Both the position numbers and the translations under genes were made by a program. From Deltaproteobacteria bacterium (lineage in GTDB: Bacteria > Bdellovibrionota_F > JAHFAK01): 20,338 nt of DNA. Position 1 is the first letter of the stretch. Each line of letters opens with the position of its first letter. The stretch covers positions 21,049 through 41,386 of the forward strand of contig JAHFAK010000006.1 of NCBI GenBank assembly GCA_023250585.1. The letters run 5' to 3'. The notes under the pieces are model-generated. The model was not told the DNA's origin. It searched no databases and saw only the letters and a list, made by a program, of their open reading frames with translations. Shown piece by piece: positions 15 through 11,887 of the stretch.

Positions 15-1271
15 ATGCAGATTGATAAAACAATAGCACGACGAGTAATTGAAACAGTTGGGGCAAATGGAATTCCACCTGAGGGAGGTTTTGAATACTT
101 CTCTTTTGGTCTTGATAATTATTTAAAACTTTTTGAAAGTGAATATTTTAAAGATTTTATTAAAAATGGCGGTTCAAGTTTTAAGATGATCTTAGGAGCA
201 TACGGCGGAGGAAAAACACATTTTCTCTATTCGCTTCGTGATATCGCCTGGAAAAATAATTTTGTGGTCAGTTATGTATCGCTGAGTGTTAATGAGGCCC
301 CACTTGCAAAGCTCGAACTCGTATATCGAGCGATTATGGCAAACTGCATGCATCCAAGTCCATTTGATGAAGTTATTACGGTGGGTATTGAAAAAGGATT
401 TAACCCAATTCTTACTAAATGGTATCACGATCTTCGTACTGCTCTCCAAGAAAGAAAAGTCCCCAAAGAAGATGAATATGATTTATTTTCAAAAGAAGTT
501 GAAAGCAAACTTGAACTCATCGAAAATGTTAATTTTAAACATGCCATAAGTGCAATTATGGAAAATCTCTTTTATGAACGGCCCGAAAAAGTGAAAGAGA
601 TTTTGCAATGGCTTGGTGGTTTTGGTTACGAAAAGCATGTACACAAACAATATAATATTCTCTATCCCATCACACGGACAAATGCATTTTCAATGATCAG
701 ATCGCTTGTACAATCTGTACGGAGCCTTGGTTACAGCGGATTAATTATTCTCTTTGATGAAGCTGAATCAATTCCAAGTATTTCTACCAGGGAAAAAGAT
801 CTCATGCTGTCAAATCTACGCGAGCTCATTGATTCATGCGCTCAAGTGTCATTTAGCAATGTAATGCTTTTCTATGCAGTGTGCGATGAAAATTTTCTCG
901 AAGGTAAAACACATATTTATGAAGCGCTTAAACAAAGGACATCATCAGTATTTAGCTTTGTTAATCCTAGTGGGGTAAAAATAAATCTCGAAGATCTACA
1001 CAAAGATCCCATTGAGCTTCTCACCGGTATTGGAAAAAATTTATGTTCTATTTATCAAAAAGCATATGAAGCAGATTTTACCACACAAAAGCTCGATGAT
1101 CTTATTACAATCCTTGCAGACAGTGCATTTGAACGTCGCTTTGGCGATATTGGTTATAAGCGCCTTTTTGTTCAAGGGGCAATAAAATTATTTCATTATA
1201 TTCGGTTCTATCCGGATGCAATCCTTGATGCACATGCGATTCATAAATTACTGGATGGTGAGACATTGTGA
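15..1271 (+). CDS. BrxD/DUF2791-like P-loop ATPase (first of two)
   Basis: This is a 418-residue cytosolic P-loop ATPase. Walker A is GAYGGGKT at residues 61-68, followed by a helix with HFLYSLRD. Walker B is LIILFDEAES at about 243-252. A conserved-looking segment LKQRTS at about 305-310 is followed by a P-S-G turn. This arrangement matches the ATP-binding proteins labelled DUF2791 or BrxD in BREX-type phage defence loci, where they accompany an Lhr-like helicase. The next gene starts with GTG overlapping this stop by 4 bases, so the two are translationally coupled and the products probably work together. The role in DNA processing or defence is inferred from the family and the helicase neighbour. 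The substrate and any partner upstream of the window are not visible. The ATPase call is firm; the BREX relationship is moderate. Confidence 0.8.
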   Translation: MQIDKTIARRVIETVGANGIPPEGGFEYFSFGLDNYLKLFESEYFKDFIKNGGSSFKMILGAYGGGKTHFLYSLRDIAWKNNFVVSYVSLSVNEAPLAKLELVYRAIMANCMHPSPFDEVITVGIEKGFNPILTKWYHDLRTALQERKVPKEDEYDLFSKEVESKLELIENVNFKHAISAIMENLFYERPEKVKEILQWLGGFGYEKHVHKQYNILYPITRTNAFSMIRSLVQSVRSLGYSGLIILFDEAESIPSISTREKDLMLSNLRELIDSCAQVSFSNVMLFYAVCDENFLEGKTHIYEALKQRTSSVFSFVNPSGVKINLEDLHKDPIELLTGIGKNLCSIYQKAYEADFTTQKLDDLITILADSAFERRFGDIGYKRLFVQGAIKLFHYIRFYPDAILDAHAIHKLLDGETL

Positions 1272-2605
1272 AAACAAAAAAAGGCGATCGTATTTTCCAT
1301 ACAAAATATGGAGCAGGATTAGTTTTGGGTATACGTTTTGGAGGCTATCGGACGCTCATTCAATTTGATAATGGACTCTCATGCTCGGTTAATACTGATG
1401 AAATCGAAGTGAGTGAAATACACAATGAGACCTCCGACCCCATAAGCACAGTAGCTAACTCACATAGTTATAAAACTGCAATTGAATCATTACGCTTGGG
1501 AATAGTTCCAAATCTTTCTATTAATGAATGGACCTTTGGGCGTGATCACGAAATATCGCAGATTAGTACGTGGCTCCAAGATGAATCGAGTGGCTCATTA
1601 GTGATTGAAGGAGCATATGGATCAGGAAAAAGCCATTTACTCAATTATATATATCATTATGCACTCAAAAATAATTTCATTGTATCATTAAGCAGCATTA
1701 ATCCATTATCATCTCCCATTTCATTTCCAAAGAAAATTTACCGCAATATCATGGATAATCTAGCTTACAAAACTCCGTGGGGGTATGGGAATGTATATGA
1801 TCTTATCTTTACCATTATTAATAGCGGCAGTTATAAACAATTAGAAGATCATAAAATTCTCGGCACGGTTTTTTCTCTCTTTCATGAAACAAAACATATT
1901 GATCTCTTACTTGATTACCTAACCGGTAAAGATATTAAACGTAGAAATTTACAGAAAGAAAATATTGATTTGCCCATGCTTCCTGATCATACCACCGCAG
2001 CAAATGTCTATTGTTATTTACTGAGTGGTATTTCATGGCTCGCCGTTAAATTGTTAGGCTACAATGGATTTCTTATATTACTTGATGAAATGGAAATGGC
2101 TAAAACGTATCGTTACTATTATGAATGGGAACGAGGAACAAATTTTCTCGAAGGTCTTTCATTAGTTGCCAGTGATGAAGATGGAGTTACCGACGAACGA
2201 ATTATTAAAAAAGGTAATGTTAAAAGAGGAACAATTACCAATTTAATTTATTCCGGTTTCACTCCTTTGCCATATGCATATATTGAACCATCATTTCTAA
2301 AAATTATTGTTGGCATTACTCCATCATTTCTACCCTACTTTGCTGGGTTCAAATATGATAAACATATAAAAATCGACAATCTTGATGAAACAGTAATCGA
2401 AAAGGTATTTTTTAAAGTTCTTCAGAGCTATGATGAATTATATGGAGTTCGCCTCAACTACGATGAAAAATTATGGCTTCAGAATTTTATGAGCCATCAA
2501 ACATTTGATTCAACCAGAAGAAAAATTAAAACAGTAATTGAAGCTCTTGATTTCAAAAGATACTACCCTACTCGATCGCTGACCGAGTTAGGAGAATATG
2601 CCTAA
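1268..2605 (+). CDS. BrxD/DUF2791-like ATPase with N-terminal Tudor-like domain
   Basis: This 445-residue protein begins with GTG at 1268, overlapping the previous stop (GTGA). Residues about 6-47 contain GDRIFHTKYGAGLV and then alternating hydrophobics, a pattern seen in the small beta-barrel at the C-terminus of UvrD/PcrA helicases and in CarD-like domains, which bind RNA polymerase or nucleic acid. The ATPase follows: Walker A GAYGSGKS at 115-122 and Walker B FLILLDEMEM at about 268-277. The segment before Walker A, with SLRLGIVPN, resembles the start of DUF2791 proteins. It is therefore a diverged partner of the upstream ATPase with an added interaction domain. Its stop overlaps the helicase start by one base. 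The ATPase assignment is secure. The barrel is a sequence-pattern call, and its binding partner is unknown. Confidence 0.78.
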   Translation: MKTKKGDRIFHTKYGAGLVLGIRFGGYRTLIQFDNGLSCSVNTDEIEVSEIHNETSDPISTVANSHSYKTAIESLRLGIVPNLSINEWTFGRDHEISQISTWLQDESSGSLVIEGAYGSGKSHLLNYIYHYALKNNFIVSLSSINPLSSPISFPKKIYRNIMDNLAYKTPWGYGNVYDLIFTIINSGSYKQLEDHKILGTVFSLFHETKHIDLLLDYLTGKDIKRRNLQKENIDLPMLPDHTTAANVYCYLLSGISWLAVKLLGYNGFLILLDEMEMAKTYRYYYEWERGTNFLEGLSLVASDEDGVTDERIIKKGNVKRGTITNLIYSGFTPLPYAYIEPSFLKIIVGITPSFLPYFAGFKYDKHIKIDNLDETVIEKVFFKVLQSYDELYGVRLNYDEKLWLQNFMSHQTFDSTRRKIKTVIEALDFKRYYPTRSLTELGEYA

Positions 2606-4179
2606 TGGATATACGTGGAGTTAAAAAAAAGCTCCCGCGCGCTTTCTCACTTTTTTTTGGCACTATTGGTACAGTAAATTCCATGCAGCTTGAGGTTATG
2701 CCAAAAATTATTGATGGAATGAACATAGTTCTCATGAGCCCTACCGCCAGTGGAAAAACTGAAGCCATTCTTGCACCACTCGTTGAAAAAATTTTAGATA
2801 TACAAAAAAAGGGGATCAAACTTCTCTATATCACTCCAACGCGAGCGTTAGTAAATGACATGTATGATCGTACTCATGGGCTTATTCGAAAAGCACACCT
2901 TTCTATTGCACGCAAGACAGGAGATCATCCAACACTGAATTCAAAAGATGTCGAAGATATTATTATCACTACTCCTGAATCGCTTGATTCAATGATCACC
3001 CGATACGGACATATCTTTCATACACTACGGGGAGTTGTTTTAGATGAGTTACATTTAATTGATAATACCACTCGCGGAGATCAATTACGCATACTTTTAC
3101 GAAGGCTTGAAAAAGATTACTTAAACGGACAAGCACAATATGCAATACTTTCAGCTACAATTGCTGATCCACTTGCACTGGGCAAAAGATATTTTGATAA
3201 TCCCGTAGTCGTAAAAGCAGGAAAGCCTCGTCCGATTGAATTAACGCTTCATGAGAATCTCAAAAATGCAATTACTGAATGCAAAATAAAAAAATTACTC
3301 AAAATTCTTATTTTTTGTAATACGCGTAAAACAGTTGAAGAACTGATGCAAGAACTTTCATCATTGTGGCCAAAAGACAAGCTCTTTGCGCATCATGGGT
3401 CACTTTCAAAAAAAGAACGTGAAGAAACAGAGAAAGCATTGAAACTTAATTCTTGGGGAATTTGTGTTTCCACGATGACTTTAGAAATTGGTGTGGATAT
3501 TGGAGACATTGACATTGTTATCTTGTATCGGCCACCACATGATTTTTCATCATTTTTACAACGCGTCGGACGTGCATGCCGACGAAAAGATATCATTAAA
3601 ACGATTGGAATTTACGAAAACGATGAGGATAAAGACCTTTTTTTAATATTTGAAAAATTAGCACGTGAAGGAAAAATACTCGCGAGTGAATATGAAGCTG
3701 ATATTTCCGTATGTGTGCAACAAATCTTCTCGCTTTTGTATGGAAAACGGCAAGGTATCGAATCTAATGAACTTGTAAAAATTTTTGAAAATATTTTTTT
3801 ACGTGAAACTGTTCTTCTGATCATTGGCCATTTACAAAAACTTGGATTTCTTACCACGCGCAGAGATAGAATACTGGCCGAAACTAAACTCATTAATTTA
3901 GGGAACTCTGGGCTCATTCATTCAAATATTAGCTGCGCAAAAGAATATACGATTATTAATCAGGCAACGAATGCTCCTATCGGCAAACTCGATTTCTCGC
4001 CTGAATTTGGCAAGTTGATTCTTTTGAAAGGCGCTGCATGGGAGGTTATGCAAATTACTTCAACCAGTGTCTATTGCAAAAAAAGTGCTACACATATTGA
4101 TGCAAAAACATACTTTGCAAAGAAACAAACCCATGGAGCATTCGCCCAATACTTACCAAAGGAATTGCAAAAGGAATAG
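2605..4179 (+). CDS. Lhr-like superfamily 2 DEAD/DEAH helicase
   Basis: This 524-residue helicase shows the SF2 motifs in order: I SPTASGKTE (45-53), Ia TPTRALVND (78-86), II DELH (147-150), III SAT (183-185), IV FCNTR (237-241), V STMTLEIGVDIGDID (289-303) and VI QRVGRACRR (319-327). A region from about 370 to 425 looks like a winged helix. It is followed by a beta-rich stretch with FGKLILLKGAAWEVMQI, as in the Lhr core. It is shorter than full-length Lhr and closer in size to the BrxHI helicases of BREX systems. It should translocate on nucleic acid using ATP; its target is not evident. The ATG at 2605 overlaps the ATPase stop by one base, with GGAG at 2591-2594 as ribosome site. It ends 23 bases from a convergent toxin gene, so the operon probably ends here. 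Confidence 0.85.
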   Translation: MDIRGVKKKLPRAFSLFFGTIGTVNSMQLEVMPKIIDGMNIVLMSPTASGKTEAILAPLVEKILDIQKKGIKLLYITPTRALVNDMYDRTHGLIRKAHLSIARKTGDHPTLNSKDVEDIIITTPESLDSMITRYGHIFHTLRGVVLDELHLIDNTTRGDQLRILLRRLEKDYLNGQAQYAILSATIADPLALGKRYFDNPVVVKAGKPRPIELTLHENLKNAITECKIKKLLKILIFCNTRKTVEELMQELSSLWPKDKLFAHHGSLSKKEREETEKALKLNSWGICVSTMTLEIGVDIGDIDIVILYRPPHDFSSFLQRVGRACRRKDIIKTIGIYENDEDKDLFLIFEKLAREGKILASEYEADISVCVQQIFSLLYGKRQGIESNELVKIFENIFLRETVLLIIGHLQKLGFLTTRRDRILAETKLINLGNSGLIHSNISCAKEYTIINQATNAPIGKLDFSPEFGKLILLKGAAWEVMQITSTSVYCKKSATHIDAKTYFAKKQTHGAFAQYLPKELQKE

Positions 4180-4202: not shown

Positions 4203-4490
4203 TTAGTTGAGGCGTTTCAAAAATGTATGTACATATTTATAAATATCTTTTCGATGATTAATTGCAAACACAGTAATTACTTTTTTAGCACCATTGACAG
4301 AAAATAGAATTCTATAATCTCCGCTTCTCATACGATATACATTTAATCCAATACCCTTAAGTTGTTTAACATTAGAACTTTGAGGAAAGTTTTTTAATGT
4401 TTTAATTTTACTCATACATTGATCAACTGTTTTTTTATCTAATGATACAATATCTTTTTTCAAAACTTCTTCTTTGATATTAATGTGCAT
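4203..4490 (-). CDS. RelE/ParE-type toxin
   Basis: This is a basic protein of 95 residues when started at the ATG at 4490. The body, with IKTLKNFP, VKQLKGIGLNVYRMRSGDYRILF and a final strand VITVFAINHRKDIYK, fits the RelE/ParE fold, whose members cleave ribosome-bound mRNA or poison gyrase. The GDYRILF and NHRKDIY segments are the most diagnostic. A start ten codons further upstream (4520) would overlap the antitoxin gene by 41 bases. The inner start leaves an 11-base overlap, has AGGTG six bases before it and gives the usual family length, so it is preferred. It is the second gene of an antitoxin-toxin pair. Whether it acts on ribosomes or gyrase cannot be told from sequence alone. Confidence 0.8.
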   Translation of the reverse strand: MHINIKEEVLKKDIVSLDKKTVDQCMSKIKTLKNFPQSSNVKQLKGIGLNVYRMRSGDYRILFSVNGAKKVITVFAINHRKDIYKYVHTFLKRLN

Positions 4491-4722
4491 CCGAAGCACC
4501 TTTTTTAATCTTTTTTTCAAATTCAGCTAAGCTCATAGTCTTACTTGCAGCACGTTCAGCAATCATCGAAATCGCCCATTCTTCTTCTGCCATTTCCTCA
4601 AGCCTATTTCTAATTGCTTCCTCGAGAATTTTCGCTTTAATAAGGTTTTTTCGTTTGCAAACCTCTGTAAAAAGTTCAAGCAGCTCGGTATTAATTTTTA
4701 CTGAAAAAGTTTTTACACTCAT
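4480..4722 (-). CDS. Ribbon-helix-helix antitoxin of the RelE-type toxin
   Basis: This 80-residue protein precedes the toxin gene. The N-terminus SVKTFSVKINTELLELFTEVCKR fits a ribbon-helix-helix DNA-binding fold: an alternating strand, then a helix and a second helix with ILEEAIRNRLEEM. The acidic, helical C-terminus with SLAEFEKKIKK would wrap the toxin. Such antitoxins dimerise, bind an operator in their own promoter and neutralise the toxin. A purine-rich AAGGA lies about eight bases before the ATG. A promoter and a palindrome lie just upstream. Pairing with the overlapping toxin gene supports the call; the exact antitoxin family is not clear. Confidence 0.78.
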   Translation of the reverse strand: MSVKTFSVKINTELLELFTEVCKRKNLIKAKILEEAIRNRLEEMAEEEWAISMIAERAASKTMSLAEFEKKIKKGASDAH

Positions 4723-4843: not shown

Positions 4844-4971
4844 TAATACTAAGTTGCATTCAAACGCTAACTGCGTTGGCTTCGTCGTCGGCTCCTCAAC
4901 GTACTATTTACGTACGTTTGCGTCGCCTTCTCCTTGCCGCCTTGTTATCATTTGAATGCAACTTAGTATTA
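4844..4971. repeat. Structured palindromic repeat, copy 1
   Basis: This element has perfect 21-bp terminal inverted repeats (4844-4864 and 4951-4971, core AAGTTGCATTCAAA). It has an internal hairpin with 7-bp arms AACGTAC and GTACGTT (4898-4904, 4912-4918). A second copy lies in opposite orientation at 5645-5768 and is similar over its full length. It carries no open reading frame of note and is clearly richer in G and C than its surroundings. It is probably a non-autonomous palindromic or MITE-like family; I do not recognise a named family. Confidence 0.75.
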
Positions 4972-4991
4972 AAAGATTAGTTTAAAACCAT

Positions 4992-5645
4992 ATGATAAAA
5001 CAAAGCGAATTAAGTAATCAGCTTCGAATATACGTAATTACCGATCAGCACATGTATTGGAAAAAAAATCCAATTGATCTTATGTGGCAATCGATTAACG
5101 GCGGTGCCACGTGTATTCAATTGCGCCACAAAGGAGAGCTTTCTCGACATGTTATTGAATTTGGCAGGTGCATTAAAAAACTTTGCGATCTCAAAGGAGT
5201 GCTTTTCATTGTTAATGACCATATTACATTATTTGAACTCGTTAATGCAGATGGATTCCATGTAGGAAAAAATGATCTCAACATCGTTGAAGCACGTTTG
5301 AGAATTGGACATCGGAAAATACTTGGTAGAACATTAGGGAAAGATGATACTCTTGATTTTCCGACTGCTCTTGTTGATTACCTTGGCGTGGGACCTATTT
5401 ACGAAACGTCATCTAAAAGAGATGCAGGATCTCCATGTGGAGTTGCTTTCCCTGATTACGCTAGAGCTCAATTCAAAAAACCAATTGTTGCCATTGGTGG
5501 AATAACCGAAAAAAATATACACGAAATATCGCCGCATACCGATGGTGTTGCTTTTATAAGTAGTGTTGCTCGTAGCTCAGATCCACTACTGACCATACAA
5601 AATATGCGCCTTAAATTTTATGAAGCTCAAAAAGTAATCAATTGA
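4992..5645 (+). CDS. thiE: Thiamine-phosphate synthase (ThiE/TenI family)
   Basis: This 217-residue TIM-barrel protein probably joins HMP-pyrophosphate to the thiazole phosphate to make thiamine phosphate in the cytoplasm. Family blocks are present in order: GGATCIQLRHK (37-47, with Q43, R45 and K47), FIVNDH (72-77, N75 and D76 for the pyrophosphate and metal), GFHVGKNDL (88-96, D95), GVGPIYETSSKRDAG (132-146, K142), and VAIGGI (166-171) before a final GVAFISS. The small residue usually a serine in the GxS block is a threonine (GRTLG). Keeping the N75-D76, D95 and K142 set favours ThiE over the TenI isomerase. No other thiamine gene is in the window. There is no clear ribosome site before the ATG. 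The gene sits alone between two inverted copies of a repeat. The symbol is assigned by family resemblance. Confidence 0.75.
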   Translation: MIKQSELSNQLRIYVITDQHMYWKKNPIDLMWQSINGGATCIQLRHKGELSRHVIEFGRCIKKLCDLKGVLFIVNDHITLFELVNADGFHVGKNDLNIVEARLRIGHRKILGRTLGKDDTLDFPTALVDYLGVGPIYETSSKRDAGSPCGVAFPDYARAQFKKPIVAIGGITEKNIHEISPHTDGVAFISSVARSSDPLLTIQNMRLKFYEAQKVIN

Positions 5646-5768
5646 ACTCAGATGCATTCAAAATGATAACGAGGCGGGCGAGGAAGAAGCGCCGCAAGCG
5701 TACGTAAATAGTACGCTGAGGAGCTTCTGACGAAGCCAACAAAGTTAGCGTTTGAATGCGACTGAGTT
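5645..5768. repeat. Structured palindromic repeat, copy 2 (inverted)
   Basis: This is the same element as at 4844-4971, in the opposite orientation. Terminal repeats of 18 bases (5645-5662 and 5751-5768) pair with two mismatches. The internal hairpin has arms AGCGTAC and GTACGCT. It fills the gap between the convergent thiE and kinase genes, touching the stop codon of each, and may act as a bidirectional transcription barrier. Confidence 0.75.
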
Positions 5769-9798: not shown

Positions 9799-10581
9799 AT
9801 GGAAATTAAAAATAATAAATCAAAAGCACTAACTTCTCAAGAAATAGACTTGTTATCGTATCTTGAGCTTAAATCAGAGGAAGTTTATACACGTGATGAA
9901 ATAAATGAATTTTTTAATGATAATAAAAAAACCGCTGGATATATTATAAAAAAACTACTCGAAAAAAAACGATTGTTGAGTCTTATCAAAAATACTTATT
10001 TAGTAGTTCCATTGAAAGCACCTCCAGGATTATGGTCAGCTAATGAATATAGTATCGCAAAAAAACTAATTAAAAATAGTACGTACTATATTGGCTACGC
10101 AGGAGTTTTTAATTCCTACGGTTTTACCGAACAAGTCGCTCAGATGGTACATATTCTTAATGATACTTATTCGGGTGAAAAAATAATTCTCGGAATAAAA
10201 TATAAAATGATTAAAGTATTAAAAAATAGATTTTATGGCCTTGAGGAGCGCATAATTGATAATAAAATAGTTGTGTTTCCCAAAAAAGAAAGAGCAATGA
10301 TTGATGTTTTTGAATTTTATAAAAACAATCCAAGAAAAGCATTTAAAATTTTAAACGAACACATAGCAAAACTAAACATTAAAGTTTTTGTAAATTTTGT
10401 TTCAAAATATCCAGTTCAAATTATACGGAGGCGAATTGGCTATTTTCTTAACCAATTAAATATAGTCGATACGTTATTAGATAAAATAGATTCGGGTAGA
10501 AAAGGATATTCTCCTTTGTATGAAAAAATTTCTTTAAAGGGAAGAATAAACAAACGATGGAGAGTAATTATCAATGAATAA
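9799..10581 (+). CDS. abiEi: AbiEi-family antitoxin/transcriptional regulator
   Basis: This 260-residue protein has an N-terminal winged-helix region (about 12-70: EIDLLSYLELKSEEVYTRDEI, then LLEKKRLLSLIKNTYLVV). An AbiEi-type core follows with YYIGYAGVFNSYGFTEQV (97-114) and AMIDVFEFY (166-174). Type IV antitoxins of this family do not bind the toxin protein. They counter its nucleotidyltransferase activity and repress their own operon by binding inverted repeats. The toxin gene overlaps this one by 8 bases (ATGAATAA), and its ribosome site GGAGAG (10559-10564) lies within this coding sequence, so the two are coupled. The ATG at 9799 has only a weak AGG before it. Codon use is strongly biased to A and T, unlike the flanking metG and AMIN genes, consistent with transfer. 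Confidence 0.8.
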   Translation: MEIKNNKSKALTSQEIDLLSYLELKSEEVYTRDEINEFFNDNKKTAGYIIKKLLEKKRLLSLIKNTYLVVPLKAPPGLWSANEYSIAKKLIKNSTYYIGYAGVFNSYGFTEQVAQMVHILNDTYSGEKIILGIKYKMIKVLKNRFYGLEERIIDNKIVVFPKKERAMIDVFEFYKNNPRKAFKILNEHIAKLNIKVFVNFVSKYPVQIIRRRIGYFLNQLNIVDTLLDKIDSGRKGYSPLYEKISLKGRINKRWRVIINE

Positions 10582-11887
10582 AGAACAATTTATTAATATA
10601 ATCAAAATACTTTCGGCAAAAGAAAATTTTAGGCAAGATAAAGTAGAAAAAGACTATTATTTAACTTTAATATTAAATGAAATCAAAGCTAATTTTGGGA
10701 ATGAAATCGCATTCAAAGGAGGGACACTCTTAAATAAAGTTTATCTAAATTATCATAGGCTTAGTGAGGATTTAGATTTTACTTATTCAGGTTCAAAAGA
10801 AATTTTAACACGCTCTCAGAGATCAAATACAATGAAACCTATAAGAGAAAAAATGAAAATTTTAATAAAAAATCTCAATCTAAAATCTAATAATCCAAAA
10901 GGGGAGGGATTTAATAATTCAACTCAGTATTCATTTAGTATATCATATCCTTCTATCATCACTGGAAAAGATGAAGAAATAAAACTTGAAATTGGATTAC
11001 GAAACAAACCAATTGACTCTCTTTTCGAAAACACTGTTTTCCATTTTTATAAATACCCAGTTACAAATAAAAATTTAATTCCAGAAAACAAAATATATAC
11101 ACTATCAGTAAATGAAACAGTAGCAGAGAAGTTAAGATGCGCAATCACAAGAAAAGAAAAAGCTATTCGTGATTTTTATGATTTAAAGAAAATATATGAA
11201 ACGGGTTTTGATTTTAATGATAAAAATTTTCGAACTGTTTTTATAGAGAAACTGAAAGAAGAACATTATAACAATGATTACGCAAATAATTTTGGATTAG
11301 ATGGAAAAACAATATTGGAAATTAAAAAACAAATTAAAGAGGATTTAATTCCGGTAATTAAGTTTGATGAAAATTTTGATTTGGAAGAAGTTTTTAAAAT
11401 GTATAATAAATTGTTTAAAGAAAAAAAAGTGACTAAATGGAGTATTGAAATAAAATGGGCTGATGATCAAAGTGAAAATACTTTCAATCAACGGCTTGGA
11501 AGCAGAGGAATAATTTGGATTGCTCAAATTTATGCAAAAAAAGAACAGTTAAAATCTCGATTAGCTTTTAATATTGAATTTAGTGAAGAATTGATTGCAT
11601 CTAACAAATATTTAAACAAAGAATATCCCAGAAATTATGAAAAGCTAGAAAATCTTTTTGCACATAAAGATACTTTTACGCAATGGATTATTATAAAACT
11701 TGAAAACTTATTTGAAACAAATGAGTTTATGGCTCTTCCCAGAAATGAAGACAGAATAAGAGAAATAGTGTTTGATACTTCTACTTTAAATTGGGCACGA
11801 AATAGTATCGAAAATAATAAAACTAATAAAGGGTATAAAAGTGAAAAAACTGGCGAGAATGCGTTTGAGTTTACTATTAATTACTAA
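10574..11887 (+). CDS. abiEii: AbiEii-family nucleotidyltransferase toxin with long C-terminal extension
   Basis: The 437-residue product has the AbiEii nucleotidyltransferase core. It includes FKGGTLLNK (47-55), SEDLDF (64-69, two catalytic aspartates D66 and D68), a third-strand acidic segment IKLEIGLR (136-143), and ETVAEKLRCAITRKEKAIRDFYDL (181-204), whose lysine and RDFYDL are typical. Family toxins transfer nucleotides, for example to tRNA acceptor ends, and block growth as part of phage abortive infection. The core seems to end near residue 280. Residues about 285-437 form an additional region rich in Lys, Glu and aromatics (KWSIEIKWADD, RGIIWIAQIYAKKEQ, TQWIIIKLENLF) that I do not recognise and that usual AbiEii proteins of about 300 residues lack. 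All core motifs are intact, so activity is expected. Confidence 0.82.
   Translation: MNKEQFINIIKILSAKENFRQDKVEKDYYLTLILNEIKANFGNEIAFKGGTLLNKVYLNYHRLSEDLDFTYSGSKEILTRSQRSNTMKPIREKMKILIKNLNLKSNNPKGEGFNNSTQYSFSISYPSIITGKDEEIKLEIGLRNKPIDSLFENTVFHFYKYPVTNKNLIPENKIYTLSVNETVAEKLRCAITRKEKAIRDFYDLKKIYETGFDFNDKNFRTVFIEKLKEEHYNNDYANNFGLDGKTILEIKKQIKEDLIPVIKFDENFDLEEVFKMYNKLFKEKKVTKWSIEIKWADDQSENTFNQRLGSRGIIWIAQIYAKKEQLKSRLAFNIEFSEELIASNKYLNKEYPRNYEKLENLFAHKDTFTQWIIIKLENLFETNEFMALPRNEDRIREIVFDTSTLNWARNSIENNKTNKGYKSEKTGENAFEFTINY

Follow-up and report, generated by a model that had tools for sequence, protein, structure and literature searches.

We found that the element present twice in the window (the whole stretch of 20,338 nucleotides that was analysed) is probably a non-autonomous MITE of the ERIC superfamily which is mobilised by IS630 transposases and whose folded strand acts as RNA, and we place the probability of this reading at roughly 0.78. 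Such an element would consist of ~20-bp terminal inverted repeats, matching IS630-type ends, around a conserved ~70-nt core whose fold is a bulged hairpin. A transposase of the IS630 family (a winged-helix protein with DDE_3) would recognise these ends in trans and insert the element at TNA, duplicating three bases. The inserted element, mostly between genes, would presumably be carried in transcripts, in which the purine-rich strand would fold as an RNA hairpin containing G-U pairs and A-G mismatches. Compensatory changes would keep this fold, which would in turn explain the conservation of the core. The likely benefit would be a structured, processable mRNA spacer which makes insertions tolerable, by analogy with what is reported for Yersinia ERIC RNA.

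Two copies of the element bracket thiE

The features of this region are listed in Table 1. The initial annotation had described two copies in opposite orientation which are similar from end to end, and alignment bore this out: 104 of 125 aligned columns were identical and none of the shuffles of one copy (0/1000) aligned as well. The stems it had quoted for the apical hairpins were correct, as were the paired changes in the terminal arms (CTAAG/CTTAG vs CTCAG/CTGAG). The trinucleotides flanking copy 1 are inverted rather than direct, and copy 2 occupies the whole gap between the stop codon of thiE and that of a convergent kinase gene. Any remainder of the BREX-like cluster at the start of the window would lie upstream of it.

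Table 1 Features in and around the two copies, in window coordinates
Feature	Position	Strand	Details
BrxC/BrxD-type ATPases (two) and BrxHI-like helicase, in a row	15-4179	+	Belong to a defence cluster, BREX-like or related
ParE-like toxin gene and overlapping upstream antitoxin-sized gene	4203-4722	-	Adjoins copy 1
Target-site trinucleotide outside left end of copy 1	4844-4846		TAA (from sequence)
Copy 1	4847-4968	minus (folding, purine-rich strand)	122 bp; covariance model R1, 124.1 bits
Copy 1, left terminal arm	4847-4866	+	TACTAAGTTGCATTCAAACG
Copy 1, conserved core	4873-4941	-	GGCGGCAAGGAG..GCGACGC..apical hairpin..GAGGAGC..GACGAAGCCAACGC; alignment A1
Copy 1, apical hairpin	4898-4918	-	AACGTAC/GTACGTT (4898-4904 / 4912-4918)
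Copy 1, right terminal arm	4949-4968	+	..TTTGAATGCAACTTAGTA; inverted repeat
Trinucleotide outside right end of copy 1	4969-4971		TTA (from sequence)
thiE (thiamine monophosphate synthase), between the copies	4992-5645	+	Pfam TMP-TENI, E 5.7e-43
Copy 2	5645-5768	plus (folding strand)	124 bp; covariance model R1, 112.3 bits
Copy 2, conserved core	5673-5741	+	Alignment A1
Copy 2, apical hairpin	5697-5717	+	AGCGTAC/GTACGCT (5697-5703 / 5711-5717)
AbiEi/AbiEii type IV toxin-antitoxin pair	9799-11887	+	

The pair had also been likened to a composite transposon around a lone biosynthetic gene. A single gene within an inverted arrangement does have this appearance, but no target duplication is common to the sequences outside the pair (ACTAATAA preceding copy 1 and ACTTCACC following copy 2), the copies are only 83-84% identical (21 of 125 columns differ) and each has nearer relatives elsewhere in the genome. 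This reading is already contradicted and we give it almost no weight: the copies differ in age or subfamily and thiE is a bystander between them. As there are ~40 copies in the genome, two around one gene are unremarkable, and further close pairs were found on contigs C14 (~450 bp apart) and C43 (~400 bp apart).

Copy number and mobility

The element is not limited to the two copies in the window, so the condition under which the initial annotation would have been refuted does not hold. Searching the 2.24-Mb genome (164 contigs) with either copy recovered at least 36 near-full-length copies of the ~122-bp imperfect palindrome, up to 98% identical, as well as fragments. The total was ~40 copies, and internally deleted or truncated copies were also present. 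The youngest group of copies was 95-98% identical, whereas copy 2 falls in a set which is older and has diverged further. The element has the features of a MITE, being short, without coding capacity and bounded by terminal inverted repeats with ~20-bp arms. Among the 29 copies with both sides visible, 26 lay between genes under a simple ORF rule; in tandem contexts the orientation relative to transcription (9 same vs 4 opposite) showed no significant bias. Rfam models gave no match to the element at gathering threshold or at E ≤ 1, and nor did the phage collection searched with the element; two pattern matches in viral contigs were rejected as chance, having the pattern alone in common. It should also be noted that L037, L040 and L156 are internally deleted derivatives of ~70-85 bp.

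With the element defined as TAC...GTA, 21 copies in this genome were flanked by TNA on both sides, and the middle base agreed, giving a direct duplication, in 15 of them (permutation p < 5e-5). Copies from other genomes behaved in the same way, with direct TNA flanks in 27 of 32 (permutation p < 5e-5). A nested insertion was found in a Magnetococcales genome (L131, element near 2829), where one copy lies inside an element of a different subfamily with TGA on both sides, and an uninterrupted paralogue (L086) has a single TGA at the matching site. The pair provides an empty-site comparison for a 3-bp duplication, although the paralogue has diverged and the right-hand TGA is followed by one extra base. 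Judged from these flanks and paralogues, the element inserts and duplicates TNA, and its mobility is well supported.

The six remaining TNA-flanked copies in this genome had no direct duplication, and four of them, copy 1 included, had inverted flanks. Inverted rather than direct trinucleotides were seen at L008, L010, L017, L020 (second copy) and L036, with pairing extending 1-2 bases into the flank at L008, L010 and L017. We did not take the inverted flanks as proof that one arm had been copied from the other, since four of six are too few.

A probable IS630-type partner

The first 15 nt of the left arm of copy 1 were identical (15/15 nt) to the end of a truncated IS630-like element on contigs C65 and C27. 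On both contigs this end precedes the start of a gene, in the order terminal repeat, AT-rich promoter-like stretch, AAAGGAGG and ATG; both sequences stop at contig ends and are 98% identical to each other. The same 15-nt end also adjoins the end of a gene with a transposase-like C-terminus on contig C155. A complete partner IS was absent from this assembly, and the three fragments, all of which stop at contig edges, are candidate pieces of a single IS. Assembly covers 35 aa at one end of the protein and ~25 aa at the other. The 35-aa N-terminus alone matched no Pfam or NCBIfam family, and among plasmids, phages and viral contigs P0001 gave matches at chance level. The IS630 proteins which NF033545 detected in this genome (contigs C118 and C103) had no matching ends and were rejected as the partner.

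Complete elements of this type were found in other genomes. A Nitrospirae genome which also carries the repeats (G064) contains an IS630-type element (L205) encoding winged-helix and DDE_3 domains in two reading frames (HTH_29/HTH_23; DDE_3 E 3.3e-17), with ends TTCCAATTC and TTA/TTA flanks; its transposase matched the N-terminal peptide of our genome weakly (E 0.002) and the C-terminal peptide at E 5e-5. Close relatives among complete IS630-type elements were flanked by TTA/TTA in Paraburkholderia (two) and Caballeronia and by TGA/TGA in Polaromonas. The Polaromonas element, with end TACCACTTTGCATTCAA, was the nearest to that of this genome, including at the N-terminus (..AEYQRIQCV vs ..ADFQRVQCM). 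An IS of this group in A. caldus had TAA..TTA flanks and no direct repeat. The Caballeronia and A. caldus elements are annotated as IS630. We saw no hairpin core next to the ends of the complete IS630-type copies. Where such ends stood alone, in genomes of Nitrospirae, Geobacteraceae, Desulfuromonadaceae and Magnetococcales, they were element copies, fragments or chance, with no transposase.

The target duplication of IS630 elements is usually a 2-bp TA. Here, in place of the duplication typical of the family, both the IS and the MITE have a 3-bp TNA, and a literature search on IS630 elements with TNA found nothing. As the elements have the same ends as the IS630-like genes of this genome and the same TNA duplication as complete IS630-type elements elsewhere, we classify them as MITEs. 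The common ends and common duplication also point, with fair support, to a transposase of the IS630 family. The complete partner would be expected to be of IS630 type, to have TACTAAGTTGCATTC at its ends and to be flanked by TNA.

Relation to ERIC and distribution across bacteria

The layout GCGTTGGCT...apical hairpin...CTTGCCGCCTT is that of ERIC (enterobacterial repetitive intergenic consensus). We compared the two using covariance models in both directions. R1 was built from 38 elements without enterobacterial sequences, and it matched five of six ERICs chosen beforehand, on the same strand and over the full length (best 38.5 bits, with a rough E-value of 7.5e-8). Scores for single ERICs were modest (22-39 bits), and an E. 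coli ERIC copy (L225) was missed. In 5.7 Mb of enterobacterial records R1 gave three matches, and all three were ERIC copies (80-84% identical to ERIC). The ERIC-only model R2, built from eight ERICs, matched copy 1 over its full length (45.2 bits, rough E-value 3.6e-10) and copy 2 (36.1 bits, rough E-value 1.7e-7), with match limits at those of the copies or within one base. All 22 matches of R2 in 142 kb fell at elements already found by R1 or by the pattern. The E-values of both models are rough; their specificity is not.

ERIC and our element are of similar length (127 bp vs 122-128 bp), are bulged palindromes over their whole length with an apical hairpin, have the core motifs AAGGCGGCAAG and AGCCAACGC in common, are largely intergenic and match each other's covariance models end to end on the same strand. 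ERIC (IRU, RU-1) differs in its enterobacterial hosts and in its terminal repeat sequences. The ERIC copies which we inspected often have TA outside TAC..GTA, as opposed to TNA in the window family, and the target duplications of ERIC are TA (PMC2759123), so the window elements are related to ERIC but are not ERIC. The most distant carrier reported for the RU-1f-type repeat is Vibrio (Delihas 2007, PMC2759123). An orientation-dependent RNA role in Yersinia, involving RNase E and host-transcript stability, is ascribed to ERIC in work cited in PMC2229807. Homology between ERIC and the window elements is strongly supported by the reciprocal matches.

In GTDB genomes the core pattern was present in 77 stretches, which came from Geobacter and relatives, Syntrophus, Nitrospirae, Magnetococcales and one betaproteobacterium; a few of these (e.g. 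L148) have the pattern alone in common with the element. The core was nearly invariant, and the ends varied by subfamily (TACTAAG, TACCAAG, TTCCAATT, TTCCGTTTC and others), each being self-complementary. In a sample of 290 genomes from across Bacteria, 20 had R1 matches at E ≤ 1e-4; these nearly always spanned the whole model, and many genomes had more than one copy; the copy counts of this domain-wide survey are lower bounds (at most 12 candidates were scored per genome). Neighbouring pairs of different ERIC-like subfamilies occur at L242 and L243. In a Nitrospirae genome (L185, 237-470) the apex is replaced by an unrelated second sequence, GGGCAACGCAAGCCAGAGTAC..., which is also present in L182.

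Other short repeats resemble the element to different extents. Like our element, RUP of Streptococcus pneumoniae is, by description, small (~107 bp) and non-autonomous with IS630-like ends, but its target is TA (PMC2229807); the same source reviews ERIC, RUP and other repeats, and notes that IS630-Spn1 has been proposed to mobilise RUP (Delihas, PMC2229807). Aklujkar et al. (PMC2700814) described 24 "predicted short RNA elements" in G. metallireducens whose apex palindrome is GRCGTAGCGCTGCTACGCC. Of 141 genomes from the order to which G059 belongs, 62 contained this palindrome, with up to 98 copies, and five of ten of its loci matched R1 over the full length (E 8e-6 to 1e-3). These elements, published as predicted RNA and not as a transposon, are a distant subfamily. 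No paper in the open-licence literature was found to link them with ERIC-type repeats. The Chunjie MITE comes from Geobacter uraniireducens, a member of a bacterial group in which many of our copies were also found, but it measures 178-235 bp (PMC10969869). Integron attC sites were rejected as an identity for the element, as the conserved AAC/GTT is absent from most subfamilies.

Conservation of the fold on one strand

Both strands folded far more stably than dinucleotide shuffles, and the purine-rich strand most of all: z was -10.96 for the minus strand of copy 1 and -9.30 for the plus strand of copy 2, vs -7.81 and -7.26 for the opposite strands. Alignment A1 had 29 invariant columns, nearly all of them within the core. 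Covariation across the family was very strong. In a 38-sequence alignment, in which kinship inflates the figures and subfamilies are mixed, 26 of 39 pairs had changed on both sides and 89% of cells were paired. The covariation score of the same alignment, also inflated by relatedness, was 0.409, vs 0.166 for shuffled alignments and 0.05-0.15 with the partners slid. This pattern held inside the core and in the arms, and double substitutions within the core included GATAGC/GCTATT, GGTGGC/GCCACT and GGTTGC/GCAACC.

We also used a strand-neutral test, in which the arms were aligned with Watson-Crick matches alone rewarded and the remaining mispairs were counted. Among copies which are related to one another, the outer 24 nt contained 79 G-T vs 22 A-C and 100 A-G vs 6 C-T mispairs, and the whole element 107 G-T vs 34 A-C and 164 A-G vs 8 C-T. 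As the copies are kin, p values for these counts are overstated. Such asymmetry shows folding of one strand, in the direction expected of a purine-rich strand which folds as RNA. A MITE does not require a conserved core, so transposition alone leaves the conservation of the core unexplained. The hairpin is far better conserved internally than at the ends needed by a transposase, the reverse of a plain MITE, which points to a functional role for the folded strand. The fold has been conserved in a strand-specific manner; the folded molecule is inferred, with moderate support, to be RNA rather than single-stranded DNA, and the benefit of the fold is likewise an inference. The initial annotation had offered selection for the folded form or parallel transposition of related elements as alternatives, and both hold: TNA duplications, the nested insertion and the ~40 copies speak for transposition, and the fold of one strand has been kept across distant bacteria.

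Alternative explanations

Folding of one strand would also leave asymmetric mispairs if the folded molecule were DNA, either in a cruciform or exposed at a replication fork, and recognised or moved in that form as in IS200/IS605 or integron attC, with no part for RNA. The palindrome spanning the whole element suits this explanation, as do the inverted flanks with pairing into the flank at L008, L010 and L017. We nevertheless consider it unlikely, given the 3-bp target duplications and the ends held in common with IS630, a double-strand cut-and-paste family; no link to Y1/HUH or to an integron integrase was found, and the AAC/GTT of attC is not conserved.

The element could instead be an IS630 MITE without function, in which covariation arose because one arm served as template for the other (template switching in quasi-palindromes), and recent horizontal spread accounts for the conserved core. 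Arm copying could account for the inverted TNA flanks (four of the six which are not direct) and for compensated changes even among near-identical copies, e.g. TAG/CTA at L010. It predicts equal numbers of G-T and A-C mispairs, however, which is not what was observed in the outer arms or overall, and the core persists over a divergence as deep as that of ERIC, with double substitutions inside it. We judge this explanation to be improbable as well, to the same degree as single-stranded DNA folding, and prefer an IS630-mobilised MITE of the ERIC superfamily with a folded strand which acts as RNA.

Implications

ERIC has been in use for bacterial typing since the 1990s, and to our knowledge its origin and mode of movement have so far been unexplained. 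A broader proposal, which we put forward tentatively and at somewhat less than even odds, is that ERIC represents a single branch within a superfamily of mobile RNA-hairpin modules in bacteria, in which an RNA-selected core may have repeatedly acquired different IS630-type ends (TNA or TA cutters) and spread between phyla. The covariance model offers an annotation route for a repeat family which is missing from Rfam, and the existence of core-sharing relatives in distant bacteria, with identifiable IS630-type ends, makes the movement and origin of ERIC testable.
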